Origin: Sulfuricella sp. | GTDB taxonomy: Bacteria; Pseudomonadota; Gammaproteobacteria; Burkholderiales; Sulfuricellaceae | NCBI GenBank assembly: GCA_023266195.1 | Contig: JAHFRP010000006.1 | Span: 62,001 to 126,000, forward strand | Direction of reading: 5' to 3' | Length of the DNA: 64,000 nucleotides | Shown: piece after piece, positions 11,542 through 60,885 of the stretch | Numbering within the stretch: the stretch's first letter is position 1 | Layout of the letters: every line of letters starts with the position of its first letter | Notes under the pieces: generated by a model | Database searches by the model: none | Seen by the model: the letters and a program-made list of their open reading frames with translations, nothing else | Told to the model about the DNA's origin: nothing | Program-made: the position numbers and the translations under genes

Positions 11542-13089
11542 ATGAGACTGGACCAGTTCCCGAACAAATTTCCAAAACTCCCCGGCGTGGCGCCGATCTG
11601 GCACGGCACGGTGGATGCGCAGGAATTCCGCAACCTGTGCGAGCAGGTCGCGCGCGGCGGCGGCAAGCTGGTGGCGCTGTGGGGCAGCGACGAAGTGGCG
11701 CGCGACGCCGGCTACGCGCTGCATGTTTCCCTGGTCACCGCGCTCGGCATGCTGTGCCTGAGCCTGCCGATCGCCGTCGAACGCCCGACATTCCCCGACA
11801 TCAGCGACCTGTTCCCCGCCGCCAACCGGATGCAGCGCGCCGTCGCCGATCTGCTCGGGCTGCATGCCGCCGGCAACGACGACCACCGCAAATGGCTGCG
11901 CCATGGCTCCTGGCCGCGCGACGTGCATCCGCTCAGGAAGAATTTCGACGGCAGCGCCGCGTTCACCACCGAAACCGACGCCTACCGCTTCGTCCCGGTC
12001 AGCGGCGACGGCGTCCATGAAATTCCGGTCGGCCCGGTGCATGCCGGCACCATCGAGCCGGGCCATTTCCGCTTCTCGGTGATCGGCGAGCGCGTGCTGC
12101 GCCTGGAAGAGCGCCTCGGCTATACCCACAAGGGCATCGAAAAACGCTTCGAGAGCATGAACCTGGAACAGGGCGCCAGGCTCGCCGGCCGGATCAGCGG
12201 CGACAGCACCGTGGCCTACGCCTGGGCCTACGCGCAGGCGGTCGAAAGCGTCACCGGCACCACCGTGCCGCCGCGCGCCGCCGCGCTGCGCGCCGTCCTG
12301 CTCGAACTGGAGCGCATCCACAACCACCTCGGCGACCTCGGCTACCTCGGCAACGACGTGGCGCTGGCATTCGGCTTCGCCCAGTTCTGGATTCTCAAGG
12401 AAGACCTGCTGCGCCTGCAAGGCGAACTGTTCGGCCACCGCTACTTGATGGACAAGGTCGTCCCCGGCGGCGTGGCCTGCGACCTCGACTCCAGCGGCTG
12501 CGACACGCTGCTCAAGTTCTTCGGGCATCTCGAACGCGAGATCGCCACGCTGAAAAACATCTACGACGAACACGCCGGCGCCCAGGACCGCTTCCTCACC
12601 ACCGGCCGGGTCTCGCCCGACCTGGCGGCGCAGCTCGGGCTGACCGGCCTGTGCGGACGCGCCAGCGGCCAGGCGTGGGACCTGCGCGCCCAGTTTCCCT
12701 GCGCGCCCTACGACGATCTGGAAGTGCGCATGGCGACCCACCGCAACGGCGACGTCGCGGCCCGCGTCACCGTGCGCTTCGAGGAAGTGATGGAATCGAT
12801 GCGCCTGATCCGCCTGCTGCTGAAACAGCTGCCGCCGGGCGAACTCTATGCCGCGCCCGGCGATGCGCCGGAAAACGTGCTCGGGCTGGGCTGGGTCGAA
12901 GGCTGGCGCGGCGAAATCCTGGTCGCGCTGCACACCGGCAAGGACAACGCCATCCACCGCCTGCATCCGCACGACCCGTCGTGGCAGAACTGGCCGGTGC
13001 TGGAGCATGCGATCATCGGCAACATCGTGCCGGACTTCCCGCTAATCAACAAATCCTTCAACCTGAGCTACACCGGGCAGGACCTGTGA
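11542..13089 (+). CDS. HyfG/NuoCD-like large subunit without NiFe-binding cysteines
   Basis: A 515-residue soluble subunit. Residues about 1-135 form a NuoC-like domain (FPAANRMQRAVADLLG, DVHPLRKNF) fused to a NuoD/hydrogenase large-subunit domain. In hydrogenases the first metal motif is RxCGxC; here the position reads RISGDSTVAY (about residue 217). The C-terminal DPCxxC motif is replaced by an end reading SFNLSYTGQDL. No NiFe centre can therefore be bound. Family knowledge: such proteins belong to energy-converting hydrogenase-related (Ehr) complexes, and complex I NuoD has lost the same cysteines. The electron donor and acceptor are unknown. No maturation genes occur in the window. Confidence 0.9.
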   Translation: MRLDQFPNKFPKLPGVAPIWHGTVDAQEFRNLCEQVARGGGKLVALWGSDEVARDAGYALHVSLVTALGMLCLSLPIAVERPTFPDISDLFPAANRMQRAVADLLGLHAAGNDDHRKWLRHGSWPRDVHPLRKNFDGSAAFTTETDAYRFVPVSGDGVHEIPVGPVHAGTIEPGHFRFSVIGERVLRLEERLGYTHKGIEKRFESMNLEQGARLAGRISGDSTVAYAWAYAQAVESVTGTTVPPRAAALRAVLLELERIHNHLGDLGYLGNDVALAFGFAQFWILKEDLLRLQGELFGHRYLMDKVVPGGVACDLDSSGCDTLLKFFGHLEREIATLKNIYDEHAGAQDRFLTTGRVSPDLAAQLGLTGLCGRASGQAWDLRAQFPCAPYDDLEVRMATHRNGDVAARVTVRFEEVMESMRLIRLLLKQLPPGELYAAPGDAPENVLGLGWVEGWRGEILVALHTGKDNAIHRLHPHDPSWQNWPVLEHAIIGNIVPDFPLINKSFNLSYTGQDL

Positions 13090-49644: not shown

Positions 49645-50281
49645 CAAGGCCATCAAGGTGATGCTGATCGACGACCACCCGGTGGTGCGCGACGGCTACG
49701 CCCGCCTGCTGGAAAACACGCCGGACATCCGGGTGGTGGCGGAGGCCGACGACGGCGAGACCGGCTGCGAGCTCTATGCGATGACCCACCCCGACGTGGT
49801 CATCCTCGACCTCTCCATGCCCGGCATGGGCGGGCTGGAAGCCCTGCGCCGCATCATGGCGAAAGACCCGGCGGCGCGCATCCTGATCTTCACCATGCAC
49901 GACAGCGAGACCCTGATCCTGCGCGCCATGGAATCCGGCGCGGTGGGCTATCTCACCAAGCACAGCGGCATCGGCCAGATGATCGAGGCGGTGCGCCAGG
50001 TGGCCCAGGGCAACATGTTCATCGACCCGAAATACATCCCGGACATCATGCGCCAGCGCCTGAAGCCCTCGTCCGACCCGCTGCAGTCGCTGTCGGCGCG
50101 CGAATTCCAGCTGTTCCAGCTGCTCGCGGAAGGGCATTCGGTGATCGAAATCGCCGAAATCCTCTCCATCAGCCCGAAAACCGTCGGCGTCCACCACACC
50201 AACATCATGAAAAAACTCAGCATCCAGAACACCGCCCAGCTCACCCGGCTGGCGATCAGGCATGGAGTGATACAGGCTTGA
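49619..50281 (+). CDS. NarL/LuxR-family response regulator
   Basis: 220 residues. Receiver domain with acidic pocket (VMLIDDHPVVRDGY), phosphoacceptor Asp64 (VVILDLSMPGMGG) and Lys in VGYLTKHSG. The C-terminal LuxR-type helix-turn-helix reads SLSAREFQLFQLLAEGHSVI, then EIAEILSISPKTVGVHHTNI. The start at 49619 follows GGAGGAAT and overlaps the kinase gene. Together they form an ordinary two-component pair. Targets unknown. Confidence 0.95.
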   Translation: MQISSKKSNKAIKVMLIDDHPVVRDGYARLLENTPDIRVVAEADDGETGCELYAMTHPDVVILDLSMPGMGGLEALRRIMAKDPAARILIFTMHDSETLILRAMESGAVGYLTKHSGIGQMIEAVRQVAQGNMFIDPKYIPDIMRQRLKPSSDPLQSLSAREFQLFQLLAEGHSVIEIAEILSISPKTVGVHHTNIMKKLSIQNTAQLTRLAIRHGVIQA

Positions 50282-50825
50282 AGAGGCAAGATTCAAGAGG
50301 CAGTTGATTCGGTCATTGAAGGCTCGACCCGGAATAGAGGGGTCTTAGCGATACTGGATTCCCGCCAACCCTCTATCCAGCGCTCCCCCAAAGGGGGAGA
50401 AGGTTTGGGTGAGGGTCCGCAGGAATGGCGAGAGCTTCAGCATTTAGTGGCCGTTCCTAAAGTGGCAAGGGAACAAGAGGTAAGACCTCTCCCCCTCTCT
50501 GCTCACCCGCACTCTTGAATCTTGTCTCTTGCAACCTCGCTGTTAACTAAAATTAATTCCCTCCCTCCGCCATGCGCAAAACCCATTTCGCATGCGACCT
50601 CCCCCGAATCCACGCCCATCAAGACATCGGTTTAAATCATATATATTTCCCTATGATCTTTAAAGATTTTCTTTAGTAGCGATTACGCGCACAGCTTATA
50701 TATTTAGGCTTTGCGTTCCTCTACAGTTACAACTCATCGACACCGATGAAAGCCGCGCAGAATCTCCGCCTCAGGCGGGAGGCGGCGGCCCTGACCGCGA
50801 GAAACTGTCACATGGGAGCAACAAC
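50282..50825. other. 544-base gap: dispersed repeats, then AT-rich promoter-like DNA
   Basis: The first half holds degenerate repeats (TTGATTCGGTCATTGAAGG, CTCCCCCAAAGGGGGAGAAGG, AGTGGCCGTTCC) shared with 25440-25560 and 60893-60975. The second half (about 50630-50730) is AT-rich for this genome, with runs such as ATCATATATATTTCCCTATG and CTTATATATTTAGG, and probably carries the promoter and leader of the HisKA_2 kinase gene. No coding sequence is supported here. Confidence 0.6.
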
Positions 50826-51494
50826 ATGCAACTGCAACCAGCGCAAGTTGACCACACGCAAACGAATGACGGAATGAGCGTGCGCGACACGGTGGTGCGG
50901 GAAGTCCACCACCGCATCAAAAATCATCTTCAGGGCGTCGCCGGTTTGCTGCGCCAGCACGCTGACGAGCACCCCGAAATCCGCTCCCCGATGGAAGTCG
51001 CCATCACCCAGATCCAGGCCGTTGCGGCCATCCATGGCTTGCAAGGCAAGCAGACCGGCAGCCTGGTCAATTTGTGCGACATGGTCGCCAAGATCGCCGG
51101 TACGGTGAGCGACCTGACCAACGCCCATATCGTGACCAGCATCATGGCGGATTCGGCCATGCCGGCGCAGATTCTGGAAAGCGAGGCGGTTGCCGTGGCC
51201 CTGATCCTGAACGAACTGATCATGAACGCGGTCAAGCACTCCCCCAACGACAACGGCAGGAAAAGCGTCCGGCTGGGCGTAACCTGCGCCCGCAAGGCGG
51301 CCCAGGTGCGGATTTTCAATCGGGGCAAGCTGCCGCTCGGCTTCAGTTTCGAACGCGGCCAGGAAACCGGCAACGGCCTCAACCTGGTGCATTCGCTGCT
51401 GCCCTCCGAAGGCGCCAGCCTGCGCATCGCGGCCGCCAACGGCGGAGTGGAGACCGTTATCGACCTGTCCACCCCGCTCGTGACGCTGCACTAA
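50826..51494 (+). CDS. Stand-alone HisKA_2-type histidine kinase (EutW-like output module)
   Basis: 222 residues with no sensor or membrane segment. The HisKA_2 box VVREVHHRIKNHLQGVAGLL has its phosphoacceptor at His28/29. The HATPase part shows LILNELIMNAVKHSP (N box) and GNGLNLVHSLLP (G2-like). This kinase type pairs with ANTAR regulators, as in EutW/EutV, and an ANTAR regulator gene follows after 390 bases. The gap between them contains foldback element copy C. The signal must come from a partner because no input domain is present. Confidence 0.85.
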   Translation: MQLQPAQVDHTQTNDGMSVRDTVVREVHHRIKNHLQGVAGLLRQHADEHPEIRSPMEVAITQIQAVAAIHGLQGKQTGSLVNLCDMVAKIAGTVSDLTNAHIVTSIMADSAMPAQILESEAVAVALILNELIMNAVKHSPNDNGRKSVRLGVTCARKAAQVRIFNRGKLPLGFSFERGQETGNGLNLVHSLLPSEGASLRIAAANGGVETVIDLSTPLVTLH

Positions 51495-51603
51495 CATGAA
51501 CCACGCGAAGCGTACCTTGTCCCCCTCGTCCGTCTCGCCATGGTCGCTACGCAGCAGCGGGAACCCGGCGGGGACACTCCTTGCGGGTGCGGGGAGAGGG
51601 CTG

Positions 51604-51804
51604 GGAGCCTGTCGGACTTGAAGAATCGAAGCGCAGAGGGTCAGGCAGGCAAGCCGCGAAGCGGATGCTCGCAAAATTCGGCTGGGCGAGGACAGATTTT
51701 GCCGGTTTTGCAGGTCAATAGTCGTTCTATTGACCAAGAAAGCGGCGAAATATGGACCGGCCAGGCGGATTTGCAGCCGATTTCCTTTAAGCCCGACAGG
51801 CTCC
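51604..51804. mobile_element. Foldback/MITE-like element, copy C (with 39-bp insert)
   Basis: Same orientation as copy B, with GGAGCCTGTCGGACTT and CCCGACAGGCTCC ends. It carries an extra 39 bases at 51634-51672 (CAGAGGGTCAGGCAGG...) absent from the other three. It lies between the HisKA_2 kinase and ANTAR regulator genes, in a 390-base gap without other genes. Confidence 0.85.
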
Positions 51805-51884
51805 TAGGGGCGAGGGAAACGATGATGGCGCAACGAATTTCATTTTCCGGGGTCGCGATTCACCACTATCGTTAGGAGCTATGC

Positions 51885-52553
51885 ATGCCACAGAATGAAA
51901 TGTTCGCGGACAAGGCGCAGCCACGCAAGACCCGTGTCCTGATTGTAGACGACGATCGCCTGGTGCTGGCGACGCTGGCCAAGGGCCTGCGCCAGTGGGG
52001 CTACGAGGTGGCCGAAGCCTCGTCCGGGGAAGCCGGGCTGAAATTCGCGCTTGAAACCAAGCCGGACATGGTGCTGCTCGACGTGAACATGCCCAGGATG
52101 TCGGGCCTGGAAGTGGCCAAGGCGTTGCGCGCCCAGACATCCATCCCGTTCATGTTCCTGACGGCTTACGGCAACAGCGAAATCGTCAAGCAGGCAACCG
52201 AGCAGGGCGCCATGGGCTATCTCGTCAAGCCGGTGGATATTTCGCAGATCGTCCCGGCGATCGAGGCGGCGCTCGCCCGCGGCAAGGAACTGGTGCACCT
52301 GCGCGAGACCGAAACGCAGCTCAGCACAGCCCTGGCCAGCAGCCGCGAAACCAGCATGGCGATCGGCATCCTGATGGAACGCGAACACCTGGGCCGCGTT
52401 GCGGCTTTCGAACTCCTGCGCGATAACGCCCGCTCGCAGCGGCGCAAAATCGGCGACGTGGCCGAGGAACTGCTCGGTGCCGTCGAACTCGTCAACCACA
52501 TGCGCAATGGCAAGTCCGCCCCGGTTGTCAGCGCGATCGAACGGAAGATGTGA
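51885..52553 (+). CDS. Response regulator with ANTAR RNA-binding domain (EutV/NasT-like)
   Basis: 222 residues. Receiver domain (VLIVDDDRLVLATLAKGLRQ; phosphoacceptor Asp66 in VLLDVNMPRMSG; Lys in GYLVKPVD). A coiled-coil linker leads to a C-terminal ANTAR domain (SRETSMAIGILMEREHLGRV, AAFELLRDNARSQRRKIGDV). ANTAR proteins bind paired hairpins in mRNA leaders and prevent premature termination. The ATG follows GGAGCTATGC. The partner is probably the HisKA_2 kinase upstream. A target RNA is not established; tandem hairpins occur in the next leader (52672-52709). Confidence 0.92.
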   Translation: MPQNEMFADKAQPRKTRVLIVDDDRLVLATLAKGLRQWGYEVAEASSGEAGLKFALETKPDMVLLDVNMPRMSGLEVAKALRAQTSIPFMFLTAYGNSEIVKQATEQGAMGYLVKPVDISQIVPAIEAALARGKELVHLRETETQLSTALASSRETSMAIGILMEREHLGRVAAFELLRDNARSQRRKIGDVAEELLGAVELVNHMRNGKSAPVVSAIERKM

Positions 52554-52671
52554 AACAAAACAACATCCGACTAGCCAAAATGTTCAGCCCATAAATTGAA
52601 TTGATTGAAGAACATGTTTATCGAAAGGGCTCTGCACCCGCCCGACTACAGCGCTTCAGCCACACGTCAAA

Positions 52672-52709
52672 GAGCCGCCCGGTTTTCGCGGCTCGCCAAG
52701 CAGCTTGGC
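52672..52709 (+). promoter_or_regulatory. Two contiguous small hairpins in the leader of the EAL-like gene
   Basis: GAGCCGC (loop of nine) GCGGCTC, directly followed by GCCAAG (loop CAG) CTTGGC. They lie downstream of the ANTAR regulator gene and upstream of the EAL-like gene. The loops do not match the known ANTAR hexaloop pattern, so the role is uncertain. Confidence 0.35.
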
Positions 52710-52824
52710 CCAGCACCCGCCTGACCCACTTAATTTTTGTCGATGCGCCGCATTCGCGCGCGGGGTGATCCAATGGCTATCGCCGGCGCAAACAGCGGAA
52801 TCATCCGTCAACAGGAGAATAGTG

Positions 52825-53748
52825 ATGATGCAATTTGAAGATAAGCGCACGGCGTCGGGCCTGGCCAGGCCGACCGGCTATCACGGCATGCTGGCAAGGG
52901 GTGCGGACGAGCCGGATTTTGCGGCAAACGGATGTGTGCTGGATTACGCGGGAAACGCGGGCAATTTGAACCGTGCAATGGGGGAACAATTGCGCCTGCG
53001 CTATCAGCCGCAACTCGACATGCACGGCGGCCGCATCGTCGGCGCGGAGGCGCTGCCGCAATGGACGCGGGCGGCATCCGAAGCCGCATCGCATGGCACG
53101 GCCTCCGCCCTGGGCAACGACATCTCGCTGGAATATTCCGCGGCGGAATGGGCGGTACGGGAAGCCTGCCTGAATCTCCGGTCCATCAGCAGGGCTGGCC
53201 TGCCCGCCCTGCGCACCACGCTGCGCCTGTCGGCGCGCCAGATCGCCGACCCGCGCCTGCCTGGTTGCCTGCGCGAGTCGCTGACGGAGGCTGGAGTCCA
53301 ACCCGGGCAGATCGAATTCGGCATCGGCGAAAACGCAATCTTGAGCAACGACCCCGAGGTGGCTTCGGCGTTGCGCAAGCTGGCCGATGCTGGCGCTGGC
53401 ATCGCCATCCGCGATTTCGGCTCGACCCATTCCAAACTGTCCTACCCGACCGGTTTTCCGGTCGATGCCATCTGGATCGACTGCCCGTTCTTCTGGCGCT
53501 TCGCCAGGGGAGGCGATGCAGCCGAAATCGTCAGCGCCATTCTGTCCCTGGCGGAGAAACTGAAGCTGAACGTGGTCGCCTGGGGCGTGGAATGCGCCAG
53601 CCAGATGACGATGCTGTACGACGAAGGCTGCAACGTGATGCAAGGCAGCCTGCTGTGCCGGCCTTTGCAGATCAGCCCTTTCACGGCCCTGATGAAGCAG
53701 CTCGGAAATTCGCAGCCCACCGTGGCAGGCGGCGTCATGCACGCTTGA
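52825..53748 (+). CDS. Degenerate EAL-domain protein, probably not an active phosphodiesterase
   Basis: About 307 residues: a short N-terminal region, then an EAL domain from about residue 50 (LRLRYQPQLDMHGGRIVGAE). The EAL motif itself is kept (GAEALPQW). However the Asn position reads LRLSARQ instead of VNLS, the metal pair DDFGTG reads RDFGSTHS, KIDRSF reads WIDCPF and the catalytic EGVE reads WGVE. Several metal and catalytic residues are therefore lost. Such proteins often bind c-di-GMP or a partner without hydrolysing it. ATG 52825 (or 52828) follows ACAGGAG; the longer frame from 52705 overlaps the leader hairpins. Confidence 0.82.
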   Translation: MMQFEDKRTASGLARPTGYHGMLARGADEPDFAANGCVLDYAGNAGNLNRAMGEQLRLRYQPQLDMHGGRIVGAEALPQWTRAASEAASHGTASALGNDISLEYSAAEWAVREACLNLRSISRAGLPALRTTLRLSARQIADPRLPGCLRESLTEAGVQPGQIEFGIGENAILSNDPEVASALRKLADAGAGIAIRDFGSTHSKLSYPTGFPVDAIWIDCPFFWRFARGGDAAEIVSAILSLAEKLKLNVVAWGVECASQMTMLYDEGCNVMQGSLLCRPLQISPFTALMKQLGNSQPTVAGGVMHA

Positions 53749-53780
53749 CGCACCATTTTTCATATCTTTCCGGAGCAATC

Positions 53781-53996
53781 GTGCGGAACATGACTTATCG
53801 CCAAAACCTGTTGGCCAACTGCAAAGGGCTGCTGGCCTGGCGCCGACCGCACAGCATGGCCGCCCCGGCAAACTTGCCCGGCGATGCGAGCCGCCCTGCC
53901 GGTACGGCAGCGATACGCACCGGGACGAATTCAGGATTCGGCGCAAGGGAAGACGACTGGCTGGGCGCCGAGGCTTACATCGAGCCGATGTTTTAA
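53781..53996 (+). CDS. Small hypothetical protein
   Basis: A 71-residue frame starting with GTG 53781, five bases after CGGAG (an ATG at 53790 is an alternative). The N terminus is basic (MTYRQNLLANCKGLLAWRRP), the C terminus acidic (GAREDDWLGAEAYIEPMF). It lies 32 bases after the degenerate EAL gene on the same strand, so it may be its small partner. No family recognised; a chance frame is possible. Confidence 0.45.
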   Translation: MRNMTYRQNLLANCKGLLAWRRPHSMAAPANLPGDASRPAGTAAIRTGTNSGFGAREDDWLGAEAYIEPMF

Positions 53997-54078
53997 CCTG
54001 CAAGCCGCCAACCGCTTTTTACAGGCTTAAACGAACCAGCCGAAACCATAACGCAACACAAATCGAGGAGAACAAAAC

Positions 54079-54339
54079 ATGCCCAACGTAAACAAGTACC
54101 CGTTGAAAGACAGATTGGACCGTGTCAGCGACCTGTCTCACACCATTGCCAGCTTTCTGGAATGGACCGAGCAGAAGAAAGGGCTGTGCCTGTGCGAGCC
54201 GTATAAGCCGCAATACGCGTGGTATGTCCCGTTCCACGCCAGTCGCGAAAAGTTGCTGATGGAATTTTTCGATATCGACTTGTCGGCGCTCGAAAACGAA
54301 AAGCGCCAGATGGTCGAGGAACGCAGCAAAGCCGCATAG
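54079..54339 (+). CDS. Small hypothetical cytoplasmic protein
   Basis: 86 residues behind a strong ribosome-binding site (GAGGAG, 8 bases before the ATG). It is rich in charged residues and helical in pattern: DRLDRVSDLSHTIASFLEWT, then CLCEPYKPQYAWYVP and a Glu-rich tail (LSALENEKRQMVEERSKAA). The CxC pair is notable. It lies between the EAL-like gene and the sigma-54 activator. No named family recognised. Confidence 0.72.
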   Translation: MPNVNKYPLKDRLDRVSDLSHTIASFLEWTEQKKGLCLCEPYKPQYAWYVPFHASREKLLMEFFDIDLSALENEKRQMVEERSKAA

Positions 54340-54573
54340 GCCCGCCGATGATCCGGGAACCGGCTTTGACTGCTTCCGGACGATTAGCCACATGTTGTCG
54401 ATTCGCTTTGGCATGATTTGAGGATTCAACCGATGGTTGAGGTTCCTTACGGGACGGATTGCACGTCACTCACGGCGCCATGCACCGCGAAAGACGCTCT
54501 CTCCGCCCCGTCCGGCTGGCGTTTTCGGGATGGCGCGAACCGAAGAATACCAACAAGACTAGAGGTACTCGAC

Positions 54574-55920
54574 ATGGAGAGCCGCAAGCTGCTTTATCTT
54601 AAGCCCCCTCAGATCACTCCCGTCCTGCTGCCGGACATCCGTTCGGCGGGGTGGGACGTGACGGTGGCGGAGCATTTCGACGAGGCCAGGGACATGATTG
54701 CGTCGCAACGCTTCAATGTCGGCCTGGCGCTGTTCGATTCCCCGGCAAATGAGGATTTGCCGGACGAAGACCTGATTTCGTCGAGCGGGAAAATGGCATG
54801 GATCGCCATGCTGCCGCCGGCATGCCTGGAAAACGAGGATATCAGCCAGATGATCAAGGACCATTTTTTCGACTACCACACCCTCCCCGCCGACTGCAAA
54901 CGCCTGTTGCCCATACTCGGCCACGCCTACGGCATGGCGAGCATCCGGCGAAGCCCGTCGGTGGAGGACGAGGAATACCCGGGCGAAGACGAAATGGTCG
55001 GCGCCAGCCCGGCGATGCTGGCGCTGTTCGCCGACCTGCGCAAGGTCTCCGGGGTCGATGCCCCGGTGCTGATCACCGGGGAAAGCGGTACCGGCAAGGA
55101 GTTGAGCGCAATCGCCATCCACGAGCGCTCCAGCCGCGCCAAAGGCCCCTTTGTCGCGGTGAACTGCGGCGCGCTGCCCCCCAGCCTGATCCAGTCCGAA
55201 TTGTTCGGCTACGAAAAAGGCGCCTTCACCGGCGCTCAGCAGCGCAAAATAGGACGGATCGAGGCCGCGGCCGGCGGAACGATTTTCCTCGACGAGATCG
55301 GCGACCTGCCGATGGACATGCAGGTCAACCTGCTGCGCTTCTTGCAGGAAAAAACCATCGAGCGCGTCGGCTCCAACCAACACCACGCCGTGGATGTCCG
55401 TGTCATCGCCGCGACCCACGTCGATCTGGAAGCCGCGGTGAAGGAAGGGCGCTTCCGCGAAGATCTCTACTACCGGCTGCACGTGCTCGACCTGAAAATG
55501 CCCGCCTTGCGGGACCGGGATGGCGACGTCGAACTGCTGGCCCGTTTTTTCTTCAAGAAATTCGCCTCGGAAAAGCGCCAGAACGTCCAGGGTTTCACCC
55601 AGGAGGCGCTGCGGATCATGAACGACCACGACTGGCCAGGCAACGTGCGCGAGATGATCAACCGCATCCGGCGCGCCATGATCATGTGCGAAAACCGCCT
55701 GATCACCCCCGCCGATCTCGGCATGGAACGCCGCGAACAGCGCCGCTGCATGCTCACCCTGGACGCGGTGCGCGTGGCGGCCGAACGCGAAGCCATCCAG
55801 ACCGCGCTGCGCCGTACCCACCGCAACGTTTCCAGGGCGGCGCAGGAGCTGGGCGTTTCGCGGGTAACGCTGTACCGGCTGATGGAGAAATGCGGGCTGC
55901 ACGCCCAGGGAACGATGTGA
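54574..55920 (+). CDS. VpsR-like sigma-54-type transcription activator
   Basis: 448 residues. The N-terminal 130 residues ([40 protein letters not shown]) look like the receiver-like domain of VpsR-type regulators and lack an obvious phosphoacceptor Asp. The AAA+ domain is complete: Walker A GESGTGKE at about residue 169, GAFTGA loop, GGTIFLDEI, and R-finger region [10 protein letters not shown]. The Fis-type helix-turn-helix is [15 protein letters not shown]. The start at 54574 is supported by AGAGG. VpsR itself responds to c-di-GMP. The GAFTGA motif and two sigma-54 promoters downstream make this their likely activator. Confidence 0.9.
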
Positions 55921-56164
55921 CCGGAGGTGGACCGGTCGCCCCTCGCCCGACGGATGAAAAATGGACTTCCATCGGGAAATAGTTGCCGGGCGTGGGATGC
56001 CCGATTTCACACCACTGGCAACTATTCGTTACACAACACCAACCCATTGAAATACCTGTAAATTAGGCTCGCAACACCATCGCAGGCAACAAAATATTTA
56101 CACCGTCCTCCCCAGGAATGCCAGGGAATCATAAATACATAAACAAAAACAGTGTATTGCGAAA

Positions 56165-56181
56165 TTGGCACAGCGGTTGCT
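56165..56181 (+). promoter_or_regulatory. Sigma-54 promoter (consensus)
   Basis: TTGGCAC, five bases, TTGCT: a full match to the -24/-12 consensus. The predicted start is near 56193, 31 bases before the ATG at 56224. An AATCATAAATA box about 40 bases upstream (56126) recurs before the second promoter at 58261. It occupies part of a 303-base gap after the activator gene. Confidence 0.8.
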
Positions 56182-56223
56182 GGGTTAATGTACTCAACAT
56201 GAATATACGAGCGAGTAACCATC

Positions 56224-56574
56224 ATGAGTAAATACATCCGCCTGGCCGCGCGGCCCGCCTGCACCCAACGCCTGCTGCCGCGGGCCTTCTGGCTGACGGT
56301 CTGGTTGTCGATCTCGCCGATGGCGATGTCTTCCCAGGCGCCCAACGGCCCAGGGAACGAAGCGGCGCCCGAAACCAGCACCCAGTCAGTGCCGGACAGC
56401 GCATCGGGCGACACAGCGCCGAAGCGCCGCCTGCCCGCCGATTATTACCGGGCCACGCCGCCGGCGACGAAAATCCCCGTGATCATCCTGTGGGATGAGA
56501 CGGGAAAAACCGGCGCCCCCGGTTCCGGTCCGATCAAACTGCGGGCGAGCATCACGACTTGCAGGAAAGGATAG
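56224..56574 (+). CDS. Small secreted or membrane-linked hypothetical protein
   Basis: 116 residues. A hydrophobic segment FWLTVWLSISPMAMSS near residues 22-37, after a basic N terminus, suggests export with cleavage. The remainder is low-complexity and polar (QAPNGPGNEAAPETSTQSVP) and ends PVIILWDETGKTGAPGSGPI. First gene after the sigma-54 promoter. Its stop lies within the ribosome-binding region of the following 34-residue gene, so the two are linked. No family recognised. Confidence 0.65.
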   Translation: MSKYIRLAARPACTQRLLPRAFWLTVWLSISPMAMSSQAPNGPGNEAAPETSTQSVPDSASGDTAPKRRLPADYYRATPPATKIPVIILWDETGKTGAPGSGPIKLRASITTCRKG

Positions 56575-56579
56575 CCGCC

Positions 56580-56684
56580 ATGAAAAAAGTCACCATCGTC
56601 GCCGCCGTCGTTACGGCCTGCACTACCATGGCCGCCACCAGCTTCGCGCTCGGTTACGTCCTCAGGCATGCGGGCCTGTTTTGA
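56580..56684 (+). CDS. 34-residue single-helix membrane peptide
   Basis: ATG 56580 to TGA 56684: MKKVTIVAAVVTACTTMAAT then SFALGYVLRHAGLF. GGAAAGGAT lies just upstream, overlapping the end of the previous gene. One hydrophobic helix with a positive N terminus. It lies in the sigma-54 transcript between two other small genes; its stop overlaps a TTG that could begin the next gene. Too short for homology. Confidence 0.5.
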   Translation: MKKVTIVAAVVTACTTMAATSFALGYVLRHAGLF

Positions 56685-56713
56685 GCGCAATCGACGCCTG
56701 CAACGGGACGGCC

Positions 56714-57079
56714 ATGCCCTCTTCCACGGCACTCACCAGGGCGATCCGGACATTGGCCGGCGCGGCGGCAGTCCTGGCGATCCTGCTTGCGGGGATCGCC
56801 ATTGGCCTGTACTCCACCGTCTATTTGGCCGTCCCGGACCTTGCCGCCGAGGGCGGCAAGGGCGCTGCCCAGAGCCGGGAAGAAGGCTTGACCAACCCGG
56901 TTTTGCACCTCGAACCCGAACCGGGCCGCGCCGGCCGGGAGGAGGACCGCCGCAGTTGGCCCTGCAAGCCGCAGGATGCCGCCGGATCGGCGGCGGATAA
57001 ATGCCGTTCGGTGCAACCATCCATCCAGAGCAGCCAAAAACTCCTGGTCATGTTGGCTCTGTTGAGAGTCAAGCCATGA
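56714..57079 (+). CDS. Small membrane protein with C-x12-C / QKLLV C-terminal signature (copy 1)
   Basis: 121 residues. One membrane helix (LAGAAAVLAILLAGIAIGLY), a polar linker, then Cys84 and Cys97 (C-x12-C) and the end QKLLVMLALLRVKP. The protein at 58405 shares this plan and ending, so they are paralogues under separate sigma-54 promoters. Start: ATG 56714 behind GGGA; a TTG at 56681 overlapping the previous stop would add 11 residues. The paired cysteines, if periplasmic, could form a disulfide. The following PAS-GGDEF gene starts 13 bases later. No named family recognised. Confidence 0.7.
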   Translation: MPSSTALTRAIRTLAGAAAVLAILLAGIAIGLYSTVYLAVPDLAAEGGKGAAQSREEGLTNPVLHLEPEPGRAGREEDRRSWPCKPQDAAGSAADKCRSVQPSIQSSQKLLVMLALLRVKP

Positions 57080-57092
57080 GGCAGAAACCGGC

Positions 57093-58094
57093 ATGACCGA
57101 CAAACGAGCCGACCTGTCCGAGCCCATCGACCTGCCGAGAGCGGAGGCCGATTGGAGCCGGCACGACCGCAGGAAACCGCAGCAACACCCGAACCCCGCC
57201 TGCGATCTCGCCATCAAGGTGTTCCGCTTCAGCCGCGAAGCCATCCTGATCACGAACGAGCAATCGATCATCCTGAGCGTCAACCATGCGTTCACGGAAA
57301 CCACCGGCTACACCGCGGAAGAAGCGATCGGCAAGAATTCGGCCTTTCTCTTTTCCAACGATGAGGATGTGCTGTCCACTTCCTGGATACGCGAAAAAAT
57401 CCTCGCGCAAGGCCACTGGCAAGGGGAAACCTGGGGCCGGCGCAAGAACGGCGAAGTATTTCCGCAATGGCTGACGGTCAGCACGGTCGCCGGCGAAAAC
57501 GGCAAAGTCACCCATTTCATCAACCAGTTCATCGATATCACCGAGAAAAAACGGGAAGAAGCAAGGTTCGAATACCTTGCCTACCACGATCCACTCACCG
57601 CGCTGCCCAACCGCATCCTGTTCAACGAACGGCTGTCCGGCGCAATTGCGCTGGCGCAGCGCCACGGCCATTCCCTCGGCGTGCTGTTCATCGACCTCGA
57701 CGGCTTCAAGCAGGTCAACGATTCCATGGGCCACGGCACCGGCGACCTGCTGCTGCAACAGGTCGCCAAGCGCCTGACCCAGTGCGTGCGGGAAAGCGAT
57801 GCGGTCGCCCGGCTCGGCGGGGACGAATTCGTCGTCCTGCTCAATGAGCTTTCCAGCGAGCACAGCGCGGAAGGCGTGGCCGATAAAATCCTGGACCTGC
57901 TGCACACGCCGTTCGTCCTGGCGGACCAGAGAATCGACGTCAGCGTCAGCATCGGCATCGCGCTGTTCCCGGACCACGGCATCGACGGCACGGCTTTGCT
58001 GGAAAAAGCCGATGCCGCCATGTATCAGGTCAAATCCAGATCCAAGAATAATTTCAAGATGTTCGACGGCGCAGCCACTCCGTGGATCGGCTGA
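57093..58094 (+). CDS. PAS-GGDEF diguanylate cyclase
   Basis: 333 residues, soluble. A PAS domain at about 35-155 (ILITNEQSIILSVNHAFTET, WGRRKNGEVFPQWLTVSTVA) is followed by a GGDEF domain (YLAYHDPLTALPNRILF, FIDLDGFKQVNDSMGHGTGD). The active-site loop RLGGDEFVVLL is intact, with inhibitory-site RESD five residues upstream. It should make c-di-GMP from GTP under PAS control. It is the last gene of the first sigma-54 transcript, with a 13-base gap from the small membrane protein gene, which suggests the latter modulates it or responds to it. Confidence 0.92.
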   Translation: MTDKRADLSEPIDLPRAEADWSRHDRRKPQQHPNPACDLAIKVFRFSREAILITNEQSIILSVNHAFTETTGYTAEEAIGKNSAFLFSNDEDVLSTSWIREKILAQGHWQGETWGRRKNGEVFPQWLTVSTVAGENGKVTHFINQFIDITEKKREEARFEYLAYHDPLTALPNRILFNERLSGAIALAQRHGHSLGVLFIDLDGFKQVNDSMGHGTGDLLLQQVAKRLTQCVRESDAVARLGGDEFVVLLNELSSEHSAEGVADKILDLLHTPFVLADQRIDVSVSIGIALFPDHGIDGTALLEKADAAMYQVKSRSKNNFKMFDGAATPWIG

Positions 58095-58260
58095 ACCCTG
58101 GCAATCTTTGGTTACACATGAAAAATGTATTGTAGTTCATGATATTACCGACATTCCGCAAGGATATTGGCGTGCCGCCGTAATGAAATCGATACACTTT
58201 ATCCTCCAGCGCCTCCCGGAACAGATCAAAACAATCATAAATAACATGATGTTGAAATTC

Positions 58261-58276
58261 TGGCATGGCGGTTGCT
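58261..58276 (+). promoter_or_regulatory. Sigma-54 promoter (second of the pair)
   Basis: TGGCAT, five bases, TTGCT, one mismatch to consensus. It shares GAAATT, GCGGTTGCTG and an upstream AATCATAAATA box (58232) with the promoter at 56165, so the two look like duplicates. Transcription would start near 58288, so the in-frame ATG at 58288 is unlikely to be used. The 310-base gap holds no other gene. Confidence 0.75.
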
Positions 58277-58404
58277 GCTCACTTGTCATGGCCGCTTTGA
58301 CGAGAAACTTGCCGATCAAAAAAGATTCCCGCCAATGGCCCGTGCCGGTGGCGCCGATTCATCCGGATGACTGCCCGGCTTGTCATTCGGGAAAGGAATC
58401 GATC

Positions 58405-58749
58405 ATGAACCAGACATCAGAATCATCGAAACTGGCCAAGGCATTGATGGACATCGCAGTAGTCATGGGCACCCTGCTGGCGGGCGTGGTGCTTGCGATA
58501 TTGACCGATACGGATTCGATCCCGCTCATTTCCCGCAGCGAGGCGCGCATACAGGAAACCGCAAACGCGCCCGAGGAAAGACCCGCACGCCTGGCAGCCG
58601 AGGCCGCCAGGCGCGAAGCGTACCACGATGCCATGGCTGCCTGCCAGGCCAGGAGAAACGCGGATCCGGCGCCCGATGTCTGCCGCCAGTCCGATCAGCA
58701 TAAACAGAAGCTGCTGGTCCTGCTGGCACTATGGCGGGTCTTGCCGTAA
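58405..58749 (+). CDS. Small membrane protein with C-x12-C / QKLLV C-terminal signature (copy 2)
   Basis: 114 residues. One membrane helix (DIAVVMGTLLAGVVLAILT), a helical Ala/Glu/Arg-rich middle, Cys80 and Cys93 (C-x12-C), and the end QKLLVLLALWRVLP, paralogous to the gene at 56714. GAAAGGA precedes ATG 58405. An upstream in-frame extension from 58288 would include DDCPACHSG but conflicts with the promoter position. It is alone in its transcript, followed by a terminator-like hairpin. Function unknown; regulation by the VpsR-like activator is inferred. Confidence 0.75.
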   Translation: MNQTSESSKLAKALMDIAVVMGTLLAGVVLAILTDTDSIPLISRSEARIQETANAPEERPARLAAEAARREAYHDAMAACQARRNADPAPDVCRQSDQHKQKLLVLLALWRVLP

Positions 58750-58765
58750 CACGCGCTTGGTTCGT

Positions 58766-58797
58766 CGGCAATCGACTTGAAGCCGATTGCCGTTTCT
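58766..58797 (+). terminator. Terminator-like hairpin
   Basis: CGGCAATCG / CGATTGCCG, a 9-bp stem with a nine-base loop, followed by TTTCT. It lies 17 bases after the stop of the second small membrane protein gene. Confidence 0.55.
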
Positions 58798-58848
58798 GGC
58801 GGGAAAGTCACGCTCTATAATAAAAATAACAGCAAAGGGCGACCCGAG

Positions 58849-59019
58849 ATGATCAAAAACGCACGCATTCGGCGAACCGGCGCCACGATCCTGGTGGCGC
58901 TGGGCGCAATCCTGATATTCCTTGCCTCGGCCGTCTGGCAAGGCGCGGTGCTGCTCGCCCTGGGCGTGATTGTGGAACTGGTCGGCATCGCCCTGGAGCG
59001 TAAAGGCGGTGAGCGGTGA
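58849..59019 (+). CDS. Small two-helix membrane protein
   Basis: 56 residues, almost entirely two hydrophobic helices (GATILVALGAILIFLASAVW and GAVLLALGVIVELVGIAL) with basic ends (MIKNARIRR; ERKGGER). The ATG at 58849 has AAAGGG upstream; a longer frame from 58777 overlaps the terminator hairpin. A -10-like TATAATAA stands at 58817, so it may have its own sigma-70 promoter. Unknown function. Convergent with the PEBP gene. Confidence 0.6.
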   Translation: MIKNARIRRTGATILVALGAILIFLASAVWQGAVLLALGVIVELVGIALERKGGER

Positions 59020-59052
59020 ACGGAGAGGGGAGTTTGCTTTTCCGCTCACCGC

Positions 59053-59622
59053 TCACCGAACTCCCTGATACAGCCCCACCAACTCCGCCTGGCCGAGAAT
59101 ATGGCCGCGCATCGCCTTTTCCAGCGCAGTCTTGGTGGGACTGTTCAAGTCGGGAAGAACAGTATCCAGGGCATAGAGTTTGTGGAAATAGCGGTGGCGG
59201 CCGACGGGTGGACACGGCCCGCCATAGCCTGTGCGCTGCCAGCTGTTCTGCCCCTGCAGCGTCTCCTGCGGCAGCGCCTTGGCCGGAATGCCCTCGGGCA
59301 GTTCGCCCGCGCCGGGCGGAATGTTGTACAGCACCCAATGCACCCATGTCATCCTGGGCGCGGCCGGATCGGGCGCATCCGGGTCGTCGACGATCAGGGC
59401 CAGGCTCTTCGTCTGCGCCGGCAGCCCCGCCCAGGCGAGCGGCGGCGAAGCGTCCTGGCCGTCGCAGGTATAGCGCTGCGGGATCACCCCACCATGAAAA
59501 AACACCGTGGATGTCAACATCATCATCGCCCCACCTCCCCGGACACTCTCCGCCGCAACCAACGCCATAACCGCCGTGCACCGCAACGCGGCGCCCCATA
59601 AGCCATGCAGATTTCGATTCAT
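59053..59622 (-). CDS. YbhB/YbcL-family PEBP (Raf kinase inhibitor-like) protein
   Basis: 189 residues. Signal-peptide-like N terminus (AALRCTAVMALVAAESVRGG) and a phosphatidylethanolamine-binding-protein fold: PQRYTCDGQDASPPLAWAGL, LALIVDDPDAPDPAAP, WVHWVLYNIPPG and YGGPCPPVGRHRYFHKLYAL. The conserved ligand-pocket Asp-Pro and HRY/H residues are present. Bacterial members have unclear roles. The start at 59622 (MNRNLHGLW) is chosen over 59631. Divergent from the HPt-HD-GYP gene. Confidence 0.9.
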   Translation of the reverse strand: MNRNLHGLWGAALRCTAVMALVAAESVRGGGAMMMLTSTVFFHGGVIPQRYTCDGQDASPPLAWAGLPAQTKSLALIVDDPDAPDPAAPRMTWVHWVLYNIPPGAGELPEGIPAKALPQETLQGQNSWQRTGYGGPCPPVGRHRYFHKLYALDTVLPDLNSPTKTALEKAMRGHILGQAELVGLYQGVR

Positions 59623-59781
59623 CTCGCCCACTCGGCAATTAATCCGGCAACCCCCCGTCCATGTATGCCGGGAGATGATTTAACTTCCAGATCGTTTCAA
59701 TATAGACCATTCCGCGTGCTCTATTGCCCATCCCTCCGCGCCGGGATACTATCGGCTCAAGGTCCAAAAAAGGGAAGCAGC

Positions 59782-60885
59782 ATGGCGAATGTTCAAGCAC
59801 TGGCCCAGCCGAAAATCGAGGATCGCGAAGCGCTGAACGAATATCTGGACGACCTGACCGACCTCGCCCCCAAGGTCGAGCGCGATGTCGCCCTGCTCAA
59901 GCAAAACCCGACCGATCAGAAGGTCGTTTCCAACCTGTTCCGCACCCTGCACAACATCAAGGGCGATGCCGCCCTGTGCAAGGTGGAAATGGGCGTGCTG
60001 ATCAGCCACCCACTGGAAACCCTGCTGGGGCGGCTGCGCACGGACGAACTGCGCTTCACCGTGCTGCTGGGAGAAATCGTCCTGCTCTCGATCGACCGCC
60101 TGGAACAGGCGGTGGAAATGCTGGCGGCGGGCAAGCCGCTCGCCGGTTTGAATCTCGTCGGCCTGGTGAAGGGCCTGGAACAGCTGATCTCAGTCCCGCA
60201 AGACCGGCTGGACGAAAAAATCGGCGAAGTCATCGAATCGGTCACCGGATTCCGCCCCAGCACCGCCGGCCAGCTCGGTGACCGCCGGGAAACAATTGTT
60301 CCGCGAACTCCGGAGACCGTCGCCGGGGATTTGCTGTTCTTCCGGTCGCTGGCGCAGCAGTTCGAAAGCCGCTCCCCCCACTTCGAAGGGCGCAGCGCCC
60401 GGACACTGCACCTCGCCCTCGACGCCAACGGGATGGCCGGCATGCCGGTGGCCCCGGTACAGCTGGAGGCGGCGGTTTACATGCACGACATCGGCATGAT
60501 GCTCCTGCCGGAACAGGTATGGCTCAAGCGGGAACGGCTCAGCGAGCGCGACAAGCAAGCCTTGCGCACCCATCCAGGCTTCGGCGCCGGCCTGCTGGAA
60601 AGGATGGACGGCTGGAAAACCGCCGCCGAGATCGTGGCGCAGCACCATGAAATGCCGGACGGCGCCGGCTATCCGATGGGCCTGACGGCAGGGCAGATCT
60701 GCCCCGGCGCGAAAATCCTCGCCATCGTCGACGCGTTCGAGGCCGTCATGCTGAAACACTCTCATCGCGGCCACAACCGCTCCCTGCTGCGCGCCATCGC
60801 CGAGGTCAACGCCTGCAACAACCAGTTCGCCGCGGAATGGATCGACCCGTTCAATCGGGTGATCCGGCGCATGATCGAGGCTTGA
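59782..60885 (+). CDS. HPt-like plus HD-GYP c-di-GMP phosphodiesterase-type protein
   Basis: 367 residues, soluble. The N-terminal 110 residues form an HPt-like helical domain with candidate phospho-His in LFRTLHNIKGDAALC. The C-terminal HD-GYP domain has its metal and catalytic residues: MHDIGM, RTHPGFGAGLLERM, AQHHEMPDGAGYPMGL and AIVDAFEAV. The usual Lys in HDIGK is Met here. HD-GYP enzymes degrade c-di-GMP; the HPt domain suggests phosphorelay control, an uncommon fusion. ATG 59782 follows AGGGAAG; the longer frame from 59605 runs antisense to the PEBP gene start. Confidence 0.88.
   Translation: MANVQALAQPKIEDREALNEYLDDLTDLAPKVERDVALLKQNPTDQKVVSNLFRTLHNIKGDAALCKVEMGVLISHPLETLLGRLRTDELRFTVLLGEIVLLSIDRLEQAVEMLAAGKPLAGLNLVGLVKGLEQLISVPQDRLDEKIGEVIESVTGFRPSTAGQLGDRRETIVPRTPETVAGDLLFFRSLAQQFESRSPHFEGRSARTLHLALDANGMAGMPVAPVQLEAAVYMHDIGMMLLPEQVWLKRERLSERDKQALRTHPGFGAGLLERMDGWKTAAEIVAQHHEMPDGAGYPMGLTAGQICPGAKILAIVDAFEAVMLKHSHRGHNRSLLRAIAEVNACNNQFAAEWIDPFNRVIRRMIEA

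Follow-up and report, generated by a model that had tools for sequence, protein, structure and literature searches.

Paired small membrane proteins of a narrow Sulfuricella family share a C-terminal tail and lie behind conserved sigma-54 promoters

Results

Two sigma-54 sites, two related small proteins

Only two sites in the 64,000 nucleotides of Sulfuricella DNA analysed here (the window) match the strict sigma-54 promoter consensus: one precedes the operon of a small membrane protein, P1, and the other precedes the gene of a second, P2. Both sites are conserved in STA_41, another Sulfuricella sp. genome, and it is this pairing of promoters and proteins that is new here. P1 and P2 belong to a protein family that is real but very narrow, and their C termini are nearly the same.

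A preliminary description of this DNA had drawn attention to the two frames on account of their common cysteine spacing (C-x12-C), an arginine after the second cysteine, and matching tails. For the window itself all of these details are correct, coordinates included:

56714..57079, forward strand: P1, 121 aa, one predicted membrane helix, C-x12-C (Cys84/Cys97), tail QKLLVMLALLRVKP
58405..58749, forward strand: P2, 114 aa, one predicted membrane helix, C-x12-C (Cys80/Cys93), tail QKLLVLLALWRVLP

The C-terminal 14-mers are identical at 11 of 14 positions. Chance resemblance was assessed by comparing all 46,056 pairs of C-terminal 14-mers from the 304 stop-to-stop frames of at least 90 codons in the window, a set that takes in overlapping and antisense frames: P1 and P2 were the sole pair to reach 11/14, the next best pair sharing seven residues. 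The last 38 residues align with E = 6e-7 (BLASTP) and, judged by their sequences, the two proteins are paralogues.

The suggestion that only the ends are conserved does not survive comparison of the four copies (P1 and P2 from the window and from STA_41). These align along their length and have 21 invariant columns, among which are both cysteines and five residues of the membrane segment (L14, A18, L24, L25 and G27). The tail core, Q-K-L-L-V-x-L-x-L-x-R, is kept in 4/4 copies, and the linkers of P1 and P2 have diverged from each other. Nor is exact C-x12-C spacing a rule of the family: 12 residues separate the cysteines in P1, P2 and STA_41 P1, but 13 do so in STA_41 P2. The arginine after the second cysteine is found in three of the four copies (P1, P2 and STA_41 P2), its place being taken by glycine in STA_41 P1.

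The best hydropathy windows span residues 14–32 (P1) and 15–33 (P2); no second window above 1.6 starts beyond residue 50 in either protein. The positive-inside argument is weak for P2 because its membrane helix has two K/R residues before it and two after. AlphaFold models, built on four sequences and of low overall confidence (mean pLDDT 57.8 for P1 and 61.5 for P2; pTM 0.27 and 0.26), place helices at 3–38 and 104–119 in P1, with an unstructured linker, and at 4–37, 46–51, 59–86 and 95–112 in P2, where the linker is modelled as partly helical. With a moment of 0.20–0.36, the tail helix shows no clear amphipathic character. An in-frame upstream extension of P2, from an ATG at 58288, was considered and set aside: the corresponding frame in STA_41 is closed by a stop, and the start was therefore kept at 58405.

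Promoters and upstream elements

The region between the activator gene described below and P2 contains the following features in addition to P1:

56028..56034, forward strand: GTTACAC, candidate activator half-site, its TTACAC at −137 from the P1-operon sigma-54 site
56097..56102, forward strand: TTTACA, the 3′ end of the PEP-CTERM-box-like 17-mer GCAACAAAATATTTACA, starting 69 nt upstream of the P1-operon sigma-54 site
56166..56181, forward strand: sigma-54 promoter of the P1 operon, TGGCACAGCGGTTGCT, strict consensus, site conserved in STA_41
56224..56574, forward strand: 116-aa small protein, 66% identical in STA_41, with a conserved ITTCxxG end
56580..56684, forward strand: frame for a 34-aa hydrophobic peptide, 26/34 identical in STA_41, inside the putative P1 operon
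57093..58094, forward strand: PAS-GGDEF protein, between P1 and P2, starting 13 nt after P1
58111..58117, forward strand: GTTACAC, candidate activator half-site, its TTACAC at −149 from the P2 sigma-54 site
58261..58276, forward strand: sigma-54 promoter of P2, TGGCATGGCGGTTGCT, strict consensus, identical 16-mer in STA_41

The strict consensus (TGGCAYN5TTGCT) is expected 0.04 times in the window and is observed twice, at 56166 and 58261. The whole genome (3.12 Mb), in which sigma-54 is encoded, holds 11 such sites and none of the reversed pattern. Because the first site ends 42 nt 5′ of the 116-aa gene, we infer an operon that runs from this gene through the 34-aa frame and P1 to the PAS-GGDEF gene; the second site ends 128 nt 5′ of P2. 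A simple scan of 55900–59050 found no sigma-70 promoter or terminator. Sigma-54 control of both the P1 operon and P2 is well supported at the level of sequence.

The PEP-CTERM box, as described by Haft et al. (PMC1569441), is a 17-nt motif that ends in TTTACA and is followed by a spacer (mean 62.8 nt, s.d. 10.6) and a sigma-54 motif. The P1 operon has a counterpart: the 17-mer GCAACAAAATATTTACA is identical in STA_41, as is its distance to the sigma-54 site, and both genomes present TTTACA, a 63-nt spacer and the sigma-54 motif. Across the genome, TTTACA stands at exactly −69 from 3 of the 11 strict sigma-54 sites. The other two precede the gene of a PEP-CTERM protein (18.0 bits; TIGR02595 cut-off 16) and that of a FeeM-type N-acyl amino acid synthase (192.7 bits), FeeM-type enzymes being associated with exosortase systems. 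At least two sites with TTTACA at −69 arose in 0 of 20,000 mononucleotide shuffles; when only the window is shuffled, 6 of 100 runs place TTTACA some 63 nt ahead of TGGCAY.

In these respects – a 63-nt gap from the end of TTTACA to the sigma-54 site, a −69 spacing shared with one PEP-CTERM gene and one FeeM-like gene of this genome, and a true PrsR in the genome – the P1 operon resembles the PEP-CTERM/exosortase regulon (PrsK-PrsR, PMC1569441). The likeness is incomplete. In its 5′ half the P1-operon box reads GCAAC where the other two boxes begin TGTCG, no TTTACA lies within 220 nt of the P2 sigma-54 site in either the window or STA_41, and P1 and P2 themselves lack a PEP-CTERM domain.

The candidate half-sites have counterparts in STA_41: GTTACAT at −138 (P1 operon) and GTTACAC at −125 (P2). 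On both strands of the window TTACAC occurs four times, three of them in the regions upstream of the P1 operon and P2; one of these three lies within the TTTACA element.

The P2 leader (58277–58404, the 128 nt between sigma-54 site and start codon) is well conserved in STA_41. An RNA element within it was considered and rejected (folding z −0.77 and −0.54, with differing structures), and 50000–60000 contains no Rfam match.

Selection on the small frames

Between the window and STA_41, dN/dS is 0.33 for P1, 0.35 for P2, 0.33 for the 34-aa frame at 56580 (few sites) and 0.49 for the 116-aa frame at 56224; the four small frames therefore behave as genes. The tails of the two paralogues have fared differently. 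That of P2 shows three silent changes and no amino-acid change. In P1, 6 of the 14 tail residues have changed and tail dN (0.23) exceeds that of the whole gene (0.17), the low dN/dS of the tail (0.18) reflecting a high dS, calculated from 11.5 silent sites. Only the core is therefore strict, and outside it the P1 tail is under no special constraint. Comparison of the P1 and P2 tails within the window gives pS 0.75 and pN 0.13 (from only 12 silent sites): with silent sites near saturation and 11 of 14 residues kept, it follows that the duplication is not recent and that the tail is under selection.

A family found in two genomes

Neither P1 nor P2 matches a Pfam or NCBIfam entry above its curated cut-off, and searches of PHROGs (E 0.01) and of PDB sequences (E 1) likewise found nothing. 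Searched to E = 10 against NCBIfam, P1 returns nothing and P2 a single entry, CbtA, whose 16.0 bits fall far short of its cut-off, 182.9. The PEP-CTERM sorting domain (TIGR02595: C-terminal PEP motif, membrane span, basic end) does not take in either protein, and the letters of the tails were not found in the literature searched. Purifying selection, together with this want of a curated-family match, bears out the proposal of a new protein family.

The same proposal foresaw a signature of wider currency, and here the searches point the other way: beyond the window's own genome, convincing copies came to light only in STA_41, where the P1 and P2 orthologues stand in the same order as in the window. 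Of the 22 genomes of the taxonomic family, a profile detected both proteins in two, the window's own and STA_41; full-profile matches in three further family genomes (G019, G011 and G012; E 0.03–0.04) were taken as chance. A pattern scan of 84,980 species confirmed one locus among 255 pattern stretches, again STA_41, and when each protein was searched for by itself in 100 relatives, no genome but these two scored below E 0.002.

A profile built from the 43 C-terminal residues matched 29 of 399 order genomes at E ≤ 0.02, with nothing above 22.5 bits except in the window's own genome. The other 28 genomes yielded 28 loci, and the 26 inspected had no QKLLV-like run; two contig-edge loci and four matches without a locus were left out of this reading. 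Among 369 class genomes no match at E ≤ 0.001 was found outside the window's own genome. At most the best 18 candidates per genome were scored in the order sample and the best 12 in the class sample, and STA_41 was evidently drawn into neither, so that sparse carriers could be missed. A mobile-element origin was also rejected: there was no match to either protein in IMG/VR or PHROGs and none to P2 in plasmids, and the single plasmid match to P1 (36 bits, E 0.6) is at chance level.

A VpsR-domain activator beside the promoters

Upstream of the P1 operon and on the same strand lie genes for a HisKA_2-type kinase, a receiver-ANTAR regulator, an EAL protein, an 86-aa protein and a probable regulator:

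54571..55920, forward strand: VpsR-domain sigma-54 activator with GAFTGA, probable regulator

This activator combines a VpsR domain (PF20161; 61.7 bits, gathering cut-off 23.7) with an AAA+ domain (PF00158; 239.6 bits), and its translation contains GAFTGA; an AAA+ domain with GAFTGA is the mark of a sigma-54 enhancer-binding protein. The genome also encodes a true PrsR (742 bits; TIGR02915 cut-off 502.6). The local activator reaches 405 bits against the same profile, below the cut-off and matched from profile position 88 on, and it is the best below-cut-off PrsR match in all three of the genomes where it is present. Its VpsR domain replaces the receiver. The C-terminal part agrees with the genome's PrsR at 49 of 108 positions and with four activators from other genomes of the genus at 25–32 of 110–113; over the full length PrsR is no closer (166/420) than two of those four (166/437 and 166/438). 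The protein appears to couple a VpsR domain to a C-terminal half resembling PrsR, and it may bind c-di-GMP.

BerB of Burkholderia cenocepacia, described in PMC5552954 as a c-di-GMP-binding activator that needs RpoN and acts in a c-di-GMP-controlled exopolysaccharide circuit, offers one comparison. The local activator is likewise an enhancer-binding protein with GAFTGA, here beside sigma-54 sites, but it carries a VpsR domain where BerB is reported to have no N-terminal input domain. VpsR of Vibrio cholerae offers another: the N-terminal VpsR domain (PF20161) is common to both, and the local protein differs in having GAFTGA and in the sigma-54 sites that follow its gene. An RpoN-dependent PEP-CTERM gene is reported in Aquincola (PMC9850573). 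No paper bringing together VpsR, sigma-54, betaproteobacteria and c-di-GMP was found in the literature searched.

The preliminary description had suggested looking for sigma-54 activators or GGDEF genes beside further members. Both are present, but the loci of the window and STA_41 are orthologous and therefore amount to one evolutionary context, with no independent recurrence.

Discussion

Homology, selection, the promoter sites and their conservation, gene order and the predicted helices are established directly. Building on these we suggest, tentatively and with a confidence just short of even, that P1 and P2 are co-induced, sigma-54-driven, periplasm-facing proteins of a c-di-GMP surface programme, which dock by way of the tail helix. 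The two paralogues would be single-pass inner-membrane proteins with the N-terminus inside, a flexible periplasmic linker whose two cysteines probably form a disulphide, and, at the C terminus, a short hydrophobic helix flanked by K on one side and R on the other. The P1 operon and P2 would be expressed on demand from their separate sigma-54 promoters, their activator at high c-di-GMP being the neighbouring VpsR-domain, PrsR-like protein, the true PrsR of the genome, or both. The PAS-GGDEF enzyme of the same putative operon as P1, in which inspection finds both GGDEF and RxxD and which is a probable diguanylate cyclase, could then provide positive feedback.

The preliminary description took the tail for an interaction motif, which is plausible, and a docking element is the most likely reading of it. 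The helix would most likely dock P1 and P2 to one another, or both to a single envelope partner belonging to a surface-polymer programme of the PEP-CTERM/exosortase-regulon or exopolysaccharide type. A role for the two proteins in the control of the cell surface or of biofilm is probable.

It seems unlikely that the tail is no more than inherited structure, serving stability or membrane packing in an orphan protein that was duplicated within the lineage and has no specific partner. Such a history would accord with a pair present in 2 of 22 family genomes, with a family genome (G010) from which P1 and P2 are absent while the activator is kept, and with a P1 tail that is changing between species; but the paralogous tails retain 11 of 14 residues at a pS of 0.75 (12 sites), and the linkers of the same proteins have diverged.

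It is also distinctly unlikely that P1 and P2 serve the PAS-GGDEF enzyme as accessory or sensor subunits, relaying the state of the envelope, through cysteine redox, to c-di-GMP synthesis. Gene order invites the idea, given that only 13 nt separate the end of P1 from the GGDEF gene and that P2 comes after it, with the same order in STA_41. However, the GGDEF protein matches PAS and GGDEF families only, P2 has a promoter site of its own, and the predicted cytoplasmic part of P1 and P2 comprises their first 13–14 residues, none of them invariant. It is highly improbable that a dedicated machine reads the tail as a sorting or export signal, analogous to PEP-CTERM but distinct from it: an extreme C-terminal position, a hydrophobic run between K and R and a promoter element common to the P1 operon and a PEP-CTERM gene would fit, but a run of eight hydrophobic residues is too short to cross a bilayer, no sorting-domain match was found in P1 or P2, only two carriers were found in the genome, and an N-terminal helix already anchors both.

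With these promoter sites an orphan family of small proteins gains a regulatory address: sigma-54 in both cases and, for the P1 operon, the spacing found at PEP-CTERM surface-protein genes as well. The conserved promoter ties and the adjacent activator, with its VpsR domain and PrsR-like DNA-binding end, make the role of P1 and P2 testable; general importance is limited by the narrow range of the family. A bolder version, in which P1 and P2 would carry an undescribed C-terminal docking or sorting signal, Q-K-LLV-x-L-x-L-x-R, and a VpsR-PrsR hybrid activator would turn them on together with the PEP-CTERM/exosortase regulon, we regard as quite improbable. Were it true, one c-di-GMP signal would deploy known surface proteins together with a second, unnamed class.

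Other genes of the locus

52822..53748, forward strand: EAL-domain protein with an RDFG motif
54079..54339, forward strand: 86-aa small protein, before the activator, 98% identical in STA_41, dN/dS 0.03

The 116-aa protein at the head of the putative operon has no family match and is a probable exported or membrane-anchored protein; its first 11 residues, its hydrophobic segment and the ITTC near its end are identical in STA_41. Downstream of P2 come a reverse-strand PBP gene and then an Hpt-HD gene. The usual EAL motif is DDFG, and the EAL protein, which has RDFG, is probably degenerate in its catalytic motifs. The 86-aa protein has a weak match to PHROG 21869, with homologues in G010, in G015 and in three further genomes of the 300 order genomes.

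G010 has the kinase, the 86-aa gene and the activator, the last of these followed not by P1 but by a convergent 807-aa gene whose product resembles, by eye, a Lon-type protease. At the position of the EAL gene the same genome has a short EAL-like remnant (L076, about 12518–12859), also seen by eye.
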